From contig CAMNNO010000005.1 in assembly GCA_946545475.1 (NCBI GenBank), forward strand, positions 1 to 40,719: DNA of 40,719 nt. Reading direction: 5' to 3'. Positions within the stretch are counted from its first letter, which is position 1; each line of letters opens with the position of its first letter. This stretch comes from an uncultured Blautia sp. (lineage in GTDB: Bacteria; Bacillota; Clostridia; Lachnospirales; Lachnospiraceae). Both the position numbers and the translations under genes were made by a program. Shown here piece after piece: positions 9,603-15,468 of this stretch. The notes beneath the pieces are model-generated. The model was not told where the DNA came from and did not search any database. It was given only the letters and a program-made list of their open reading frames with translations.

Positions 9603-10788
<1,186 letters not shown>

Positions 10789-10817: not shown

Positions 10818-11030
10818 CACTTTTTATACTAGAAGTACTTGAAAATTACCACCGGTAATTTTCTTAGTACTTCTGCATATACCGCGGCACAGAATTATAC
10901 TAGTTACACTTAATAATTGCCGGAGGCAATTATTCTAGTGTAACTGCATATACCGCGGCACAGAATTGCAATCGGCAGCTAAATTCGTTCGCGAGTATAA
11001 AAATGTTATTTTATTGTATCCGCGAGTATA
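10793..11030. repeat. Outer palindrome interrupted by a nested repeat
   Basis: Left arm TATACTCGCGTTCTCAATAA... (10793-10824) is an imperfect inverted copy of the right arm (11000-11030), which ends CCGCGAGTATA. The unit between them, 10825-10999, is a complete modular element. The arrangement reads as one palindrome that received another. It fills most of the 10608-11032 gap and stops 2 bases short of the J-like/SEC-C stop codon. Confidence 0.75.
10825..10999 (-). repeat. Modular TATA-ended palindromic element, copy 3 (two-hairpin form)
   Basis: Inverted relative to copies 1 and 2. Read on the minus strand: TATACTCGCGAAC head, then the GTTACAC hairpin of copy 1, a partial second head (GTGCCGCGGTATATGCA), then the GAAGTAC hairpin of copy 2, ending CTAGTATA. 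It therefore joins in one element the two hairpins that occur singly at 5316 and 6827. Confidence 0.88.
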
Positions 11031-11032
11031 AG

Positions 11033-12421
11033 TCAAACGTTTTTGTTCATGCAGCAATTCTTATACTTTTTCCCGCTCCCGCATGGGCACGGGTCGTTGC
11101 GGCCTATCTTTTTTCCAGGGCGGATATAGGTCTCCCCGCCTGACGCGACAAGACGGCCATGCGCCTTCTCGCGTTCCTCCGGGTACCATTCGTAATACGA
11201 ACTTCCGCTGTAGCCCCTCTCCGTCAGTGTTTTCAGTTCTCTCTCCAGGGCCTCCTTCATCAGGCCGATATCCTTATCTTCCTTCGGCAGCCGCTCTATT
11301 ATGCCGTTAACCGGTTCCACAAGCATGGGGTATTCCCTGCGGGCATAAGGCAGCGCTTTCCAAAAATCCTCCCACTCGGACAGGATGCACAAAGTCGCGT
11401 CCACCTCGGCATAGTGCCGCACGCTTTTTGGGGCCTCTTGGCATCTGCAGAGCTCGGTTATGGTCCTTTTTATCCCCTCATCCTCATTGAACAGCTTCCA
11501 CACGCAGTTGCCTTCACGCTCTTCAATATCATCACGGTCATCCTGGTCTGACGCTGCGTTCTTAAGGCTGGCAAAAGCCTGGGATACCTTGATGGCGTTG
11601 CCGTTTCCGGAGGAGACAAGATATGTGGCGTGATCCAGCAGTTCGGCGGCCTCGCCCACCTTCCGGGCAAGGTTTATGGCATTCTGGCCGACAAAATGGA
11701 CAATGGCATCGAAATATTCCTGGAAATCCCTGCGCTTATAGTAATATTGCGACCAGTCATGAACGATCATGTCGCCCAGGAACAGTCCCTTCCCGAGCTC
11801 ATCTCTGTTCCAGCTCGTCTTCTTCTGCATCGCCTCCAGGAGAAAGGAAAGCTCCAGGATGCGCCCTTCCGGCTTCTCGTTATATTCTTCCGCATATTTC
11901 GCGATAAAGGAGATATCGCGCAGCCCTTTTTCTCCGGCTTCCCGGAATGCCTTCCAGGCTTTGGCGTGGTACCCCCTCTCATAGTAAGCTTCGGCAAGGA
12001 TGCCTGTAAAATAGACGTTGCCCGCCTCCATGGCCGCGAGCCTTTCCGCGTTTTTGACCGCCTTCCCGCTGTTGCCGGCCTTGATCTGTGCCTGGATAAG
12101 CTTATATAAAAAGTAGGTGCTTTCCGGGAAATGCGATACGGCCTCCTCGGCGGTGTCGCGCATCTTTTCCCATTGCCTGTACTGCTCAAAATCCTCGATC
12201 TGTTCAGAAAGCGCTTTCTCCGCCTCCTGGCTAAACGGCGGGAAAACGGGCCCGCTGCTCTCCTCCCGGTTTTTCAGTTCCTCATAGGCCCTGCGCAGGC
12301 GCTGGAATCCTTTTGGGTCCTTATCCGGCGTATGCTCTCTTATAAGCCTGGCGTAGGCGCTCCGCACCTCCTGCGGCTTTGCGCCTTCCGGCACGCCAAG
12401 GATCTCATATGCACTGGCCAT
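11033..12421 (-). CDS. J-like domain protein with C-terminal SEC-C zinc motif
   Basis: Cytosolic protein (462 aa). Residues about 1-65 form a J-like domain ([31 protein letters not shown]). The HPD tripeptide that stimulates Hsp70 is changed: aligned HPD positions read TPD within REHTPDKDP. The middle is helical and TPR-like. The C-terminus carries a SEC-C motif, [18 protein letters not shown], as in SecA, where it binds zinc and contacts SecB or ribosomes. The ATG of MASAYE is preferred (AAAGGAG 5 bases upstream). It is the last gene of an operon after Hsp70 (55-base gap), so it is probably the dedicated co-chaperone. The substrate is unknown. Confidence 0.85.
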
Positions 12422-12476
12422 GGCTTCTCCTTTCTTCTGCGCGATACTCTTCACACGCAGAAAAACAGCACTCTTT

Positions 12477-14228
12477 TTAAGACATGAGCTTTATCAAGCT
12501 GTCCATCACATCGGTGGCTGACTTTAATTCTGCCTCTATCTTTTCCGCCGATTCCCATTCTTCAAGCACTATAGTCCGCTTCAACAGGTCAACAACTTCC
12601 TGGAGGCTGTCGACGGCTTCTGTCACCTCTTTTTCCTTGAATGTCCTGCCCTGCCGGATCAGGCGCTCCGTGCGCCGGATGATCGCCCGGTAAGGCTCGG
12701 AGCCTTCAACATCCTTCCATTTTGAAATATCGACCATTTCCTCATCATCCCGGAAGGGATCTTCCGGCGCGCTTTCATTCATGTTAATCTGGATGGAAGC
12801 CTCATGGCCGGTGCTCTCAATGACGGCCGAAACATTCAAAAGCCCGTTGATGTCATAGGAGAAGGTGACACGGATCTTCTCCTTTCCGGCCTTCTTTGGC
12901 GGAATGCCGCCTATGCGGAACTCTCCGAGGAAATGATTACTGCTGGCGATCTCGCTCTCTCCCTGGTAGACGCGGATATCCGCCTCGCGCTGATTATGCT
13001 CGTATGTCCTGTATATCCGCGTTTTTTCCACCGGGATAGTGACATTTCTTGGAATGACCACGCTCATCACGTCATAGGAGAACCCGTCAAATACCTGCAG
13101 GCCCAGCGTATAAGGATTGACATCCGTCATGACAAGGCCTTCTGCAGGGTCTATCTTCCCTTCTATCATGGCCGCCATGATGGCTGCGCCCTGGGCGACG
13201 GCATAGTCCGGATCGACCGCGCGCGAGGGCTCTTTTCCCAGGTAGGATGCGATATCCTGCGCGATCATGGGCATGCGTGTGGAGCCGCCCACCAGGATAA
13301 TGTGGTCGATCTGGGATGGCGTTATGCCCCCGTCGCTGAGGACGACATCGATCGGGCGGTGCGTGCGCGCCACCAGGTCGGCTGTGAGGCTCCTAAACTG
13401 CTCCGCGCTGATCGTCTCATCGATGGCCAGGGGCCTTCCTTCTTTTTTGGCGATCATGGGGAGCTGTATGCGGTAGCTGGCATCGGTGGAAAGCGCGATC
13501 TTGCACGCTTCCGCTTCGTCCCGGATGCGGACCATGGCATGTCTGTCCTCATTAAGGTCAATGCCGTAACTGTCCCGGAATTTCTTCACCAGATAGTCGA
13601 TCACCTTCTGGTCAAAGTCCTTTCCGCCCAGCTCGTTATCCCCGCTGCTGGCCTTGACCTCCAGTATGCCCTCAAACATTTCCAAAAGTGTCACGTCGAA
13701 GGTGCCGCCGCCCAGGTCGTACACCAGGACATGGCTCTCTTCGTCCATGTGGTCCAGGCCGTAGCAGAGGGCCGCCGCCGTGGGCTCATTTAAGATCCGC
13801 TCCACCTGGAACCCGGCCATGGTGCCGGAGAGAAGCGTCTCGTGCCTCTGGATATCGTCAAAATAGGCCGGCACGGAAACCACCGCGCGGGAGACCTCTT
13901 CCCCAAGGTAGTGGCCTGCGTATGTCCGGACATATTCCAGGATCTTAGCCGAGAGGGCTGCGGGCGTATAGGGCTGGCCGCCCAGAATGATGTCCTCGCC
14001 CTTTCCGATCTTGCGCTTCACTTCCATCGCGGTTTTTTCCGGGGAGAGAAGGAGCTGGGCCTTCGCCCGCTCTCCCACGACCCAGTTTCCGCTTTCGTCG
14101 ATCCCGACCACGGAAGGCACGATCGCTTTATTGTCAAAGGTAAGGATCATCTCCGTTTTGCCGTCCCGGTATATGGCTGCCTCGGTCGTCGAGGTCCCGA
14201 GGTCAATGCCGATAATGGTCTCGCTCAT
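12477..14228 (-). CDS. Accessory Hsp70 (DnaK-family) chaperone
   Basis: ATP-dependent chaperone of 583 residues. The nucleotide-binding domain shows [15 protein letters not shown] (phosphate 1), [26 protein letters not shown] (phosphate 2), and [12 protein letters not shown] (adenosine). The linker region [11 protein letters not shown] departs from the DnaK consensus. The substrate-binding domain and a short helical lid follow. It begins GIDLGTS(T)TE, unlike housekeeping DnaK (IGIDLGTTNS), and sits between a GrpE-like and a J-like gene, not with hrcA-grpE-dnaK-dnaJ. It is therefore judged a second, specialised Hsp70. Start at MSETII: AAGGAG is 5 bases upstream; an in-frame start at 14288 is less likely. 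Confidence 0.93.
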
Positions 14229-14341
14229 AATGTCTCCTTTCAAATGGCCCTGCCATTCTGTGAGATGCGTCTTCCATGCCCTGCGCATGTGCCGCAGGCT
14301 TTCCGTGCCCTGTGCATATAGCTGTAACTCAGCCCTTCCGG

Positions 14342-14968
14342 TTATGCGCGGAGCCTGTAAGCGCCTACGCGGGCTTTTTTCTTTACCTTTCCCTGGTAAA
14401 CATAGCCCGGGGCAAAGGTCGTTTCTACCGTCCCGTTTTTTTCGGGCTGGTCCGTCTCCGTAACCGAGATAACCTCGTGCAGGTCATAGTCCACCATCTC
14501 CCCCGCTTTTCCCGTAACCACCAGCCCGGCACGCAGCCGGGCGGAAGAAAGGGAGGCGTCAAGGAGCGCCATCTGGTCTTCCCAATCCTTGTTCCCCGAA
14601 AAGGCCTGCCGCAGCAGGTGAAGGCCTTCCTCATACCTGCCGCAGAGCCCAAGAAGGGCATCCACCTCCGGCTGGCGGTCGGAGGAGCGGATCTGCTCCC
14701 TGAGCTCGTCCCACTCATCCAGCATCTCCTCCTGCGCCATATCATGCCGTCCGATAGCCTTCTGCATATCGCCAAGGACAGCCGCCTGACGGCCGGATGT
14801 TTCCCGTAGCTCCTTCATGGCCTCTTCGGCGTGTTCGCTCCCGGCCTGCACAAGGCCCTCCAGCCTGGCGGCCAGCTCCTTTACTTCCTGCATGGAATCC
14901 CACAGCGCGGCGGCTCTCTTTTCTTCTCTTTCTTTATCCTCTTTCCGTTTTTTTCCTATTCCAAGCAT
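14342..14968 (-). CDS. GrpE-like nucleotide exchange factor (divergent)
   Basis: Protein of 208 residues: a basic N-terminus, a long coiled coil (about residues 10-100, rich in E, K, R, L), then a small beta-like C-terminus with APGYVYQGKVKKKARVGAYR. This resembles the GrpE pattern (dimeric coiled coil plus GYxYxGKVxRxAxV). Similarity is weak elsewhere. It is the first gene of the operon with Hsp70 (113-base gap), as expected for its exchange factor. A poor AAAAGGGG ribosome site stands about 10 bases before the ATG. Alternative: an unrelated coiled-coil partner. Confidence 0.7.
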   Translation of the reverse strand: MLGIGKKRKEDKEREEKRAAALWDSMQEVKELAARLEGLVQAGSEHAEEAMKELRETSGRQAAVLGDMQKAIGRHDMAQEEMLDEWDELREQIRSSDRQPEVDALLGLCGRYEEGLHLLRQAFSGNKDWEDQMALLDASLSSARLRAGLVVTGKAGEMVDYDLHEVISVTETDQPEKNGTVETTFAPGYVYQGKVKKKARVGAYRLRA

Positions 14969-15002: not shown

Positions 15003-15031
15003 ATTATAGCGCATCAGGCGCTTCCTGGAAA
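15003..15031 (-). promoter_or_regulatory. Predicted promoter of the GrpE-like/Hsp70/J-like operon
   Basis: On the minus strand, TTTCCA (15031-15026) and TATAAT (15008-15003) are 17 bases apart, 35 bases before the GrpE-like start. The -35 matches consensus in 4 of 6 positions. No CIRCE-type inverted repeat (TTAGCACTC-N9-GAGTGCTAA) is present, so HrcA control is not indicated. Confidence 0.55.
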
Positions 15032-15147: not shown

Positions 15148-15468
15148 CTATTTTCTGATGAACCTCTCGTCCACCCCGATATCCTCGCTGACAAACCTCT
15201 CCACGCTCATGTGCAGGTCGTACTTCTCCCGGAGCGCCGCTATCTGGGCCATCATGGGGCTGGCGTGGTGCGCGTCGATGGCGGCCTGGTCCTTCCAGCT
15301 GTCGATGAGCAATATGGTTTCCGCATCATCAAGGGGCTGGAAATACTGGTATCGAAGGTTCCCTTCTTCCGCGCGGATGGCATCGGCGATCCCCGCATCT
15401 TCCATCTCTTCGGCAAACGCCCTGGCCGCGCCATGGACACCTTTGTAATAAAGATTGACTGTTATCAT
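15148..15468 (-). CDS. Putative quinol monooxygenase / ABM-domain protein
   Basis: A 106-residue protein with the ferredoxin-like ABM fold seen in YgiN-type proteins: MITVNLYYKG opening, EEGNLRYQYFQPLDD, TILLIDSWKDQAAIDAHHAS, then MSVERFVSE. Members oxidise quinols or aromatic compounds without cofactor, but many are uncharacterised; the substrate cannot be inferred here. It lies 36 bases after the MBL hydrolase gene in the same direction, so the two may share a transcript. Confidence 0.82.
   Translation of the reverse strand: MITVNLYYKGVHGAARAFAEEMEDAGIADAIRAEEGNLRYQYFQPLDDAETILLIDSWKDQAAIDAHHASPMMAQIAALREKYDLHMSVERFVSEDIGVDERFIRK

Follow-up and report, generated by a model that had tools for sequence, protein, structure and literature searches.

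The 40,719-nucleotide stretch of DNA analysed here (the window) comes from an uncultured Blautia sp. of the Lachnospiraceae (assembly GCA_946545475.1, contig CAMNNO010000005.1, positions 1 to 40,719). On its minus strand it carries a three-gene operon encoding a GrpE-like protein, an Hsp70 and, last, a J-domain protein extended by a TPR-like helical superhelix and a SEC-C zinc motif (Table 1). The J-domain reads TPD in place of the tripeptide HPD (His-Pro-Asp). Gaps of 113 bp (GrpE-like/Hsp70) and 55 bp (Hsp70/J) separate the genes. A prediction made earlier from the sequence alone (the original prediction) had read these three same-direction genes as exchange factor, chaperone and co-chaperone, and all three assignments were supported by Pfam. 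The Hsp70 start was placed at the ATG at 14228, with its ribosome-site-like GGAG, in preference to 14288 of the open-reading-frame list; for the J protein the ATG at 12421 is the better reading.

Table 1. Features of the accessory Hsp70 operon in window coordinates.
Feature	Position	Strand	Details and basis
GrpE-like gene, most likely a nucleotide-exchange factor	14342..14968	-	208 aa
Accessory Hsp70 gene	12477..14228	-	583 aa; Pfam HSP70, trees, site table
Interdomain linker of Hsp70 (11 residues)	13095..13127	-	Alignments; Thr at DnaK L392, D393 kept
J-domain/TPR-like helical superhelix/SEC-C gene	11033..12421	-	462 aa; Pfam DnaJ and SEC-C, AlphaFold2 model
TPD in place of HPD, residues 31-33	12323..12331	-	ACG CCG GAT; sequence, alignments
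SEC-C zinc motif, residues 441-459	11045..11101	-	Pfam; Cys conservation
Promoter-like match TTTCCA-17-TATAAT	15003..15031	-	~35 bp upstream of GrpE-like gene; consensus scan

Conservation and family placement of the operon

The window's assembly (3.33 Mb, 91% complete) also encodes a canonical DnaK-DnaJ pair on contig C109 and three HPD-bearing J proteins (DnaJ and two further ones), so that the trio is accessory, as originally proposed. DnaJ-family matches were present in 16 of 16 trio-positive genomes searched, and in G470 (72% complete) the sole such match was the trio's own J protein.

An initial search of 250 genomes with the J protein returned mostly SEC-C-only matches and led to three full trios in the family. 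A profile covering the J-domain and TPR part (A1), built from four sequences, gave matches above 100 bits both in a family sample (6 of 397 genomes) and in a phylum sample (8 of 398), the window's own genome included in each. At a loose cut-off the numbers rose to 201 and 359, the weaker matches including canonical DnaJ and giant J proteins. Within the genus, the whole J protein was matched in 11 of 64 genomes (own included), and in 3 of 34 among those of high quality. Named genomes were scanned with a further profile (A4), confirming 156 relatives, of which the best 80 were kept and their flanks fetched up to 5 kb; these and other loci carry L numbers below. The scan used the J peptide patterns [EQD]IK[KR]AYF[KSR]L and F[RQ][EK]IREAY, which bias those columns; the HPD position lies in neither. 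The 80 loci are mainly from Lachnospiraceae, with Oscillospiraceae, Peptococcaceae, Caldicoprobacter, Clostridium and Treponema also represented, and more distant forms come from Calditrichota, Chloroflexota, Armatimonadota and Cyanobacteria.

Of the 80 loci, 75 had an Hsp70 within the fetched flanks, 68 a GrpE-like gene and 66 SEC-C, some missing partners falling at contig ends (e.g. L185, L192). Trios counted as intact were those passing length and score thresholds, so that loci with a short J protein or a weak GrpE match were left out. All 58 had the order GrpE-Hsp70-J on one strand, a recurrence in other genomes that argues against a chance arrangement. Pairwise distances in the intact trios were strongly correlated (J with Hsp70 0.89, Hsp70 with GrpE 0.86, J with GrpE 0.83; maximum of 500 permutations 0.27), which shows, at the level of protein distances, joint inheritance and does not imply contact. 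The co-occurrence of the three families on which the original prediction had staked itself is thus seen in other genomes.

The surroundings of the locus varied. No neighbour family was present at more than 10 of the 80 loci, and a conserved wider neighbourhood was rejected on this count; the most frequent neighbours were a small TPR gene (10), an ABC-ATPase family (8) and an AAA-type family (7), with the rest at six or fewer (the two ATPase names are our own assignments). Together with the patchy distribution, this is consistent with a self-contained module subject to transfer or frequent loss. A plasmid search with the window J protein gave four records with partial C-terminal matches. PADLOC matched the SEC-C tail and neither Hsp70 nor the GrpE-like protein, and a defence system was rejected.

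Variant layouts were also noted. The small TPR gene (L214, 2969-3580, and nine further loci) is found mainly in Peptococcaceae-like and related Clostridia, and L125 and L127 have a gene like it between Hsp70 and J. Seven loci (L224, L227, L230, L232, L247, L133 and L134) combine a short J protein (98-129 aa) with a GrpE-like protein of 255-430 aa and an Hsp70; this layout is spread over several phyla, a Nostoc plasmid included, and in at least L134 and L247 a TPR protein is encoded upstream. Six of the seven Hsp70s were included in the tree described below, where they fall in a group sister to DnaK/HscA.

The window Hsp70 belongs to the Hsp70 superfamily (Pfam HSP70 510 bits against a cut-off of 20.6, E 9e-153). 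It scored below the NCBIfam cut-offs for DnaK, with 521.0 against 822.55 (TIGR02350) and 527.5 against 648 (PRK00290). In a 54-row tree (root arbitrary, HscA a long branch; a larger quick tree was also made), the trio Hsp70s formed a clade of 19 rows with support 100/98, or 22 rows with a cyanobacterial/armatimonad group (98/93). This clade lay outside both the DnaK/HscA clade (8 rows, 100/99; 15 rows with its sister group, 100/99) and a clade joining HscC with giant-J relatives (13 rows, 100/100). Assignment as DnaK was rejected on the cut-offs and the tree. Assignment as HscC was rejected on the separate clade and the presence of the GrpE-signature loop, which is 28 residues long in 76 of the 82 clade Hsp70s and in 7 of 7 DnaKs, against 22 in 8 of 9 HscCs.

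The GrpE-like protein scored 34.5 bits against Pfam GrpE (cut-off 25.8) and gave a profile match to 1dkg. Its model and fold matches show the long helix and C-terminal beta-domain of the family, and on sequence and predicted fold its gene most likely encodes a dedicated nucleotide-exchange factor.

The J protein and its probable docking site on Hsp70

HPD is the signature of J-domain proteins, and its histidine is thought to be essential for switching Hsp70 on. The window J protein scored 37.5 bits against Pfam DnaJ (cut-off 27.8), placing it among J-domain proteins by profile, and the change of HPD to TPD reported in the original prediction was confirmed. A profile against which DnaJs, too, reach 41-52 bits was used to read the listed frames of the fetched trio loci and yielded 109 related J-domains; these, like the 98 accessory Hsp70s considered below, include duplicates where a genome and a named contig are the same assembly (e.g. 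L144, L153). None of the 109 has histidine at the first motif position, which is Ser in 54, Pro in 30, Thr in 17 and another residue in 8. The following Pro was kept in 108 and the acidic residue (Asp or Glu) likewise in 108. The loop was six residues shorter than that of E. coli DnaJ in 108 of 109, and the spacing from Pro to helix III Phe47 was 7 in 108, compared with 12-16 in seven HPD J proteins. A sequencing error or local mutation was rejected as the origin of TPD because relatives from many genomes also lack the histidine. Helix II R30 is Arg or Lys in 108 of 109; a role as histidine substitute was set aside, basic residues at this helix II site being found in DnaJs as well.

The same profile, which picks up DnaJs as well, revealed no HPD J gene in the listed frames of the trio flanks. 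The xP[D/E] motif was intact at 75 of 75 loci with Hsp70 and broken in two of the 80 (L201, L225), both without Hsp70 in the fetched flanks (Fisher p 0.003, uncorrected for relatedness).

A complementary pattern was seen on Hsp70. Contacts described for DnaJ on DnaK are H33 to the L391 carbonyl, P34 to P419, and D35 to R167 and Q378 (PMC8215388, in part); the H33 contact with L391/L392 is described as relaying the signal (PMC13012618, in part), and the HPD aspartate as perturbing R167 interactions (PMC7289447, in part). Among the 82 clade Hsp70s, R167, N170, D393 and P419 were each kept in all 82 and Q378 in 78; 16 more distant accessory Hsp70s kept D393 (16), P419 (16) and N170 (15). Position 392, Leu in 7 of 7 DnaKs and in E. 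coli HscA, was Thr in 80 of the 82. Over all 98 accessory Hsp70s it was Thr in 86, Val in 10, Ala and Ser in one each, and never Leu. Judged from these alignments, the Pro and acid contacts appear kept and the His contact changed, each on both sides, which is suggestive and not proof. The original prediction had singled out the linker of the window Hsp70 as different. The Thr at 392 bears this out; the difference is not specific to the operon, TDVxPYxLG being the form of the whole clade and resembling TDICPYSLG of E. coli HscC in alignment.

A second His-free pair, consisting of a giant J/TPR protein (1,110-1,197 aa) encoded directly upstream of its own Hsp70, was encountered at six loci from the window's family (L249 to L254). 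The giant J motif is NPE in 6 of 6, and the partner Hsp70s, where complete, have 562-567 aa; four of these were placed in the tree and grouped with HscC. At least 40 of the 397 family-sample genomes show J matches in frames above 940 aa, six of which were examined as giant-J loci. The Hsp70 matches in the genome of the window included no giant-J-linked member.

Beyond the J-domain, the window protein scored 39.5 bits against Pfam SEC-C (cut-off 20.4), weakly against TPR, and carries a canonical CxCx8C(C/H) zinc motif, whose four Cys are invariant in 51 aligned relatives. Mean column entropy was lowest in SEC-C (0.84 bits), making the J-domain (1.28) the most conserved part after it, ahead of the TPR part (1.73), linker (2.5) and middle (2.94). 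The AlphaFold2 model from 51 sequences (predicted local distance difference test, pLDDT, 91.2) shows helix II at 16-29, a six-residue turn, helix III at 36-54 and a helical superhelix up to 421, followed by a less certain SEC-C tail. Fold matches to model residues 63-187 tie among many TPR proteins and point to no specific function. The C-terminal SEC-C tail of SecA has the same CxCx8CC-type motif, which in the window protein is attached to a J/TPR protein, and the SEC-C-type domain of SecA is reported to bind ribosomes and, in E. coli, SecB (PMC6620043, in part). The original prediction had placed the cycle at ribosomes or on exported proteins. No SecB match was found in the 91% complete assembly, and a ribosomal role of the J protein is possible, though speculative and unproven; distant relatives have no SEC-C. 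L044, L047 and L048 encode SEC-C proteins of 431-467 aa in which no J-domain is visible and whose C-terminal ~100 residues resemble the window J protein.

A proposed Hsp70 cycle and its alternatives

In our preferred reading, held with a probability of about 0.62, the three genes specify a self-contained Hsp70 machine of their own, in which a His-free J-domain drives the cycle. The J protein would dock via helix II at the usual site on its own ATP-bound Hsp70, and its shortened [S/T/P]P[D/E] loop would trigger ATP hydrolysis through a linker contact that makes no use of histidine. The acidic residue would engage Hsp70 Arg167 and the proline would pack on Pro419. The His33 contact with the linker (Leu391/Leu392) would be rebuilt from both sides, with His becoming Ser, Thr or Pro in the J protein and Leu392 becoming Thr in Hsp70. 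The GrpE-like protein would release ADP and so reset the nucleotide state, and the TPR superhelix and zinc-binding SEC-C could choose the place or client, possibly ribosomes or nascent chains, ribosome targeting being speculative. A dedicated, altered and undescribed Hsp70 cycle had been put forward in the original prediction, and it is credible because the three families co-occur and are co-inherited and HPD is replaced throughout the clade. That reading had missed the six-residue shortening of the loop, the parallel with HscC/DjlB/DjlC and the retained docking site.

Hsp70-J-GrpE machines, HPE J-domains, 'type IV' J proteins and a designed HPD-free J analogue are already known; the last is reported to stimulate Hsc70 (PMC13254874, in part). 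With the canonical GrpE-DnaK-DnaJ system the trio shares the three-part set, the J-docking residues, the GrpE loop and the GrpE fold; it differs in the absence of HPD and CIRCE and in the TPR and SEC-C parts of its J protein, and the window Hsp70 is about 37-45% identical to the DnaKs compared. A May 2026 review, in the sections consulted, treats HPE in DjlB/DjlC as seemingly the sole tolerated change of HPD and states that accident versus positive selection of other deviations 'remains enigmatic' (PMC13254874). In open-licence PubMed Central papers we found no account of the trio, nor of natural His-free J-domains selected with their own Hsp70.

Several observations weigh against the proposed cycle. 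HPD-bearing DnaJs of the cell could supply the stimulation. Replacement of HPD His by Gln or Asp by Asn is reported to abolish it in every system tested (PMC8215388, PMC13254874, both in part), and a simulated H33A mutant binds without reaching the stimulated state (PMC13012618, in part). On the Hsp70 side, all 82 clade members have lost D477, with which K48 of DnaJ forms a salt bridge, the window Hsp70 has Met at Q378, and R167 is kept in 14 of the 16 more distant Hsp70s. His loss and the 392 change are not strictly tied, since all 9 HscCs have Thr392 and yet His is kept in DjlB and DjlC of E. coli; judged from the alignments, the latter follows clades and may reflect one or two events. The decoupling of motif and Hsp70 rests on two loci and ignores relatedness, and three of the five loci without Hsp70 keep the motif (L160, L223 and L192, the last of which begins with the J gene). 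A clear exception is a relative on a Nostoc plasmid, which has PAH although Hsp70 and GrpE are adjacent. Of 11 J proteins from the vicinity of HscC (9 records, E. coli included), 3 have His and 8 have xP[D/E]; His loss thus extends to HscC systems, with the rest of the motif looser there. Gene order differs in distant relatives, being J-GrpE-Hsp70 in L133, L134, L224, L227, L229, L230 and L232 and Hsp70-GrpE-J in L130, and SEC-C was not found at 14 of the 80 loci, including all seven from other or unnamed phyla. As a separate observation, a Vibrio plasmid J protein with HPE had no HscC within the fetched stretch.

The main rival is that the J protein is a type IV pseudo-J that binds Hsp70 without triggering it, acting as recruiter or inhibitor, with a canonical HPD DnaJ providing the stimulation. 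We regard this as unlikely, and still well ahead of the readings discussed below. The same review presumes natural HPD-altered J-domain proteins to be nonfunctional and raises recruiter or inhibitor roles for them (PMC13254874, in part), HPD J proteins and DnaJ-family matches are at hand in the genomes concerned, and the H33A simulation retains binding. A mere recruiter sits less well with a Pro and an acidic residue that are almost invariant, with a motif broken solely where Hsp70 is missing (two cases in 80 loci) and with flanks devoid of a visible HPD J gene. Pam16 (DKE/DKS) and DnaJB13 (HPL) share with the trio protein a J-domain bearing a non-conservative HPD change; these type IV proteins have lost the HPD aspartate (PMC13254874, in part), whereas the trio J keeps Pro and acid in place and is linked to Hsp70 and GrpE-like genes. 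E. coli DjlC has the same short loop, reads HPE and is reported to stimulate HscC (PMC8215388, in part).

A second rival, that the operon is simply an HscC/DjlC system in Bacillota, we judge improbable. The window J-domain matches E. coli DjlB (E 1e-6) and DjlC (5e-5) and shares their short loop, and the Hsp70 resembles HscC in its accessory status, similar length, TDxxPYxLG linker and FSYDINGLL strand. The link to DjlB/DjlC nevertheless rests on the loop and the window's own match, since the short-loop J profile is about equally close to DnaJs (41-52 bits) and to DjlB and DjlC (48.5 and 37.7 bits). DjlB and DjlC differ in keeping His, in being tail-anchored (PMC8215388, in part) and in having no SEC-C. 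In the tree HscC groups with a giant-J relative found in the window's own family, in a clade apart from that of the trio, and the GrpE loop of HscC is deleted; the trio Hsp70 retains this loop beside a dedicated GrpE-like gene, whereas HscC is not an expected target of GrpE (PMC8215388, in part). A decayed dnaK-grpE-dnaJ duplicate of no special function could account for the patchy distribution (11 of 64 genus genomes and, by strong match, 6 of 397 family-sample genomes). This is very improbable given that the frames are open, the J-domain and SEC-C columns are conserved, the gene order is constant within the clade and the module is spread over several phyla.

We tentatively suggest, at somewhat less than even odds, that much of the bacterial Hsp70 tree beyond DnaK and HscA uses a second J-domain class with no HPD His and a loop six residues shorter, matched to Hsp70 linkers with Thr or Val at 392. 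Such a class might, with the same reserve, span the trio clade, most sampled HscC-linked J proteins, the giant-J/Hsp70 pair and several smaller clades. If so, histidine would be a feature of DnaK/HscA-type switching and not a requirement of J-driven Hsp70 chemistry. Dozens of genomes keep a His-free J next to the Hsp70 it belongs with, in most cases together with a GrpE-like gene, and so offer natural pairs for testing the switch, with Hsp70 position 392 as a partner-side change open to test. For Lachnospiraceae and relatives, the trio is a further, complete Hsp70 system of the accessory kind.

Promoter region and neighbouring features

In agreement with the original prediction, no CIRCE-like site was found in the whole window at up to three mismatches to the consensus. 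The single promoter it had also proposed fared less well. One match lies upstream of the GrpE-like gene, and the region holds five promoter-like matches against 2.8 +/- 1.7 in shuffles; this count is within chance and leaves the claim weak. A monooxygenase-domain gene (15148-15468) lies upstream of the trio and a phosphotransacetylase gene (9603-10607) downstream, both on the same strand.

Between the trio and the latter gene, at 10824-10965, a 71-nt unit occurs twice in tandem; both copies are palindromic, differ in their stems and share the constant part GCATATACCGCGGCACAGAATT. Rfam gave no match in the window, these units included. In the genome the constant part occurs in 92 copies (39 forward, 53 reverse, at up to two mismatches), compared with 0 for the reversed control.

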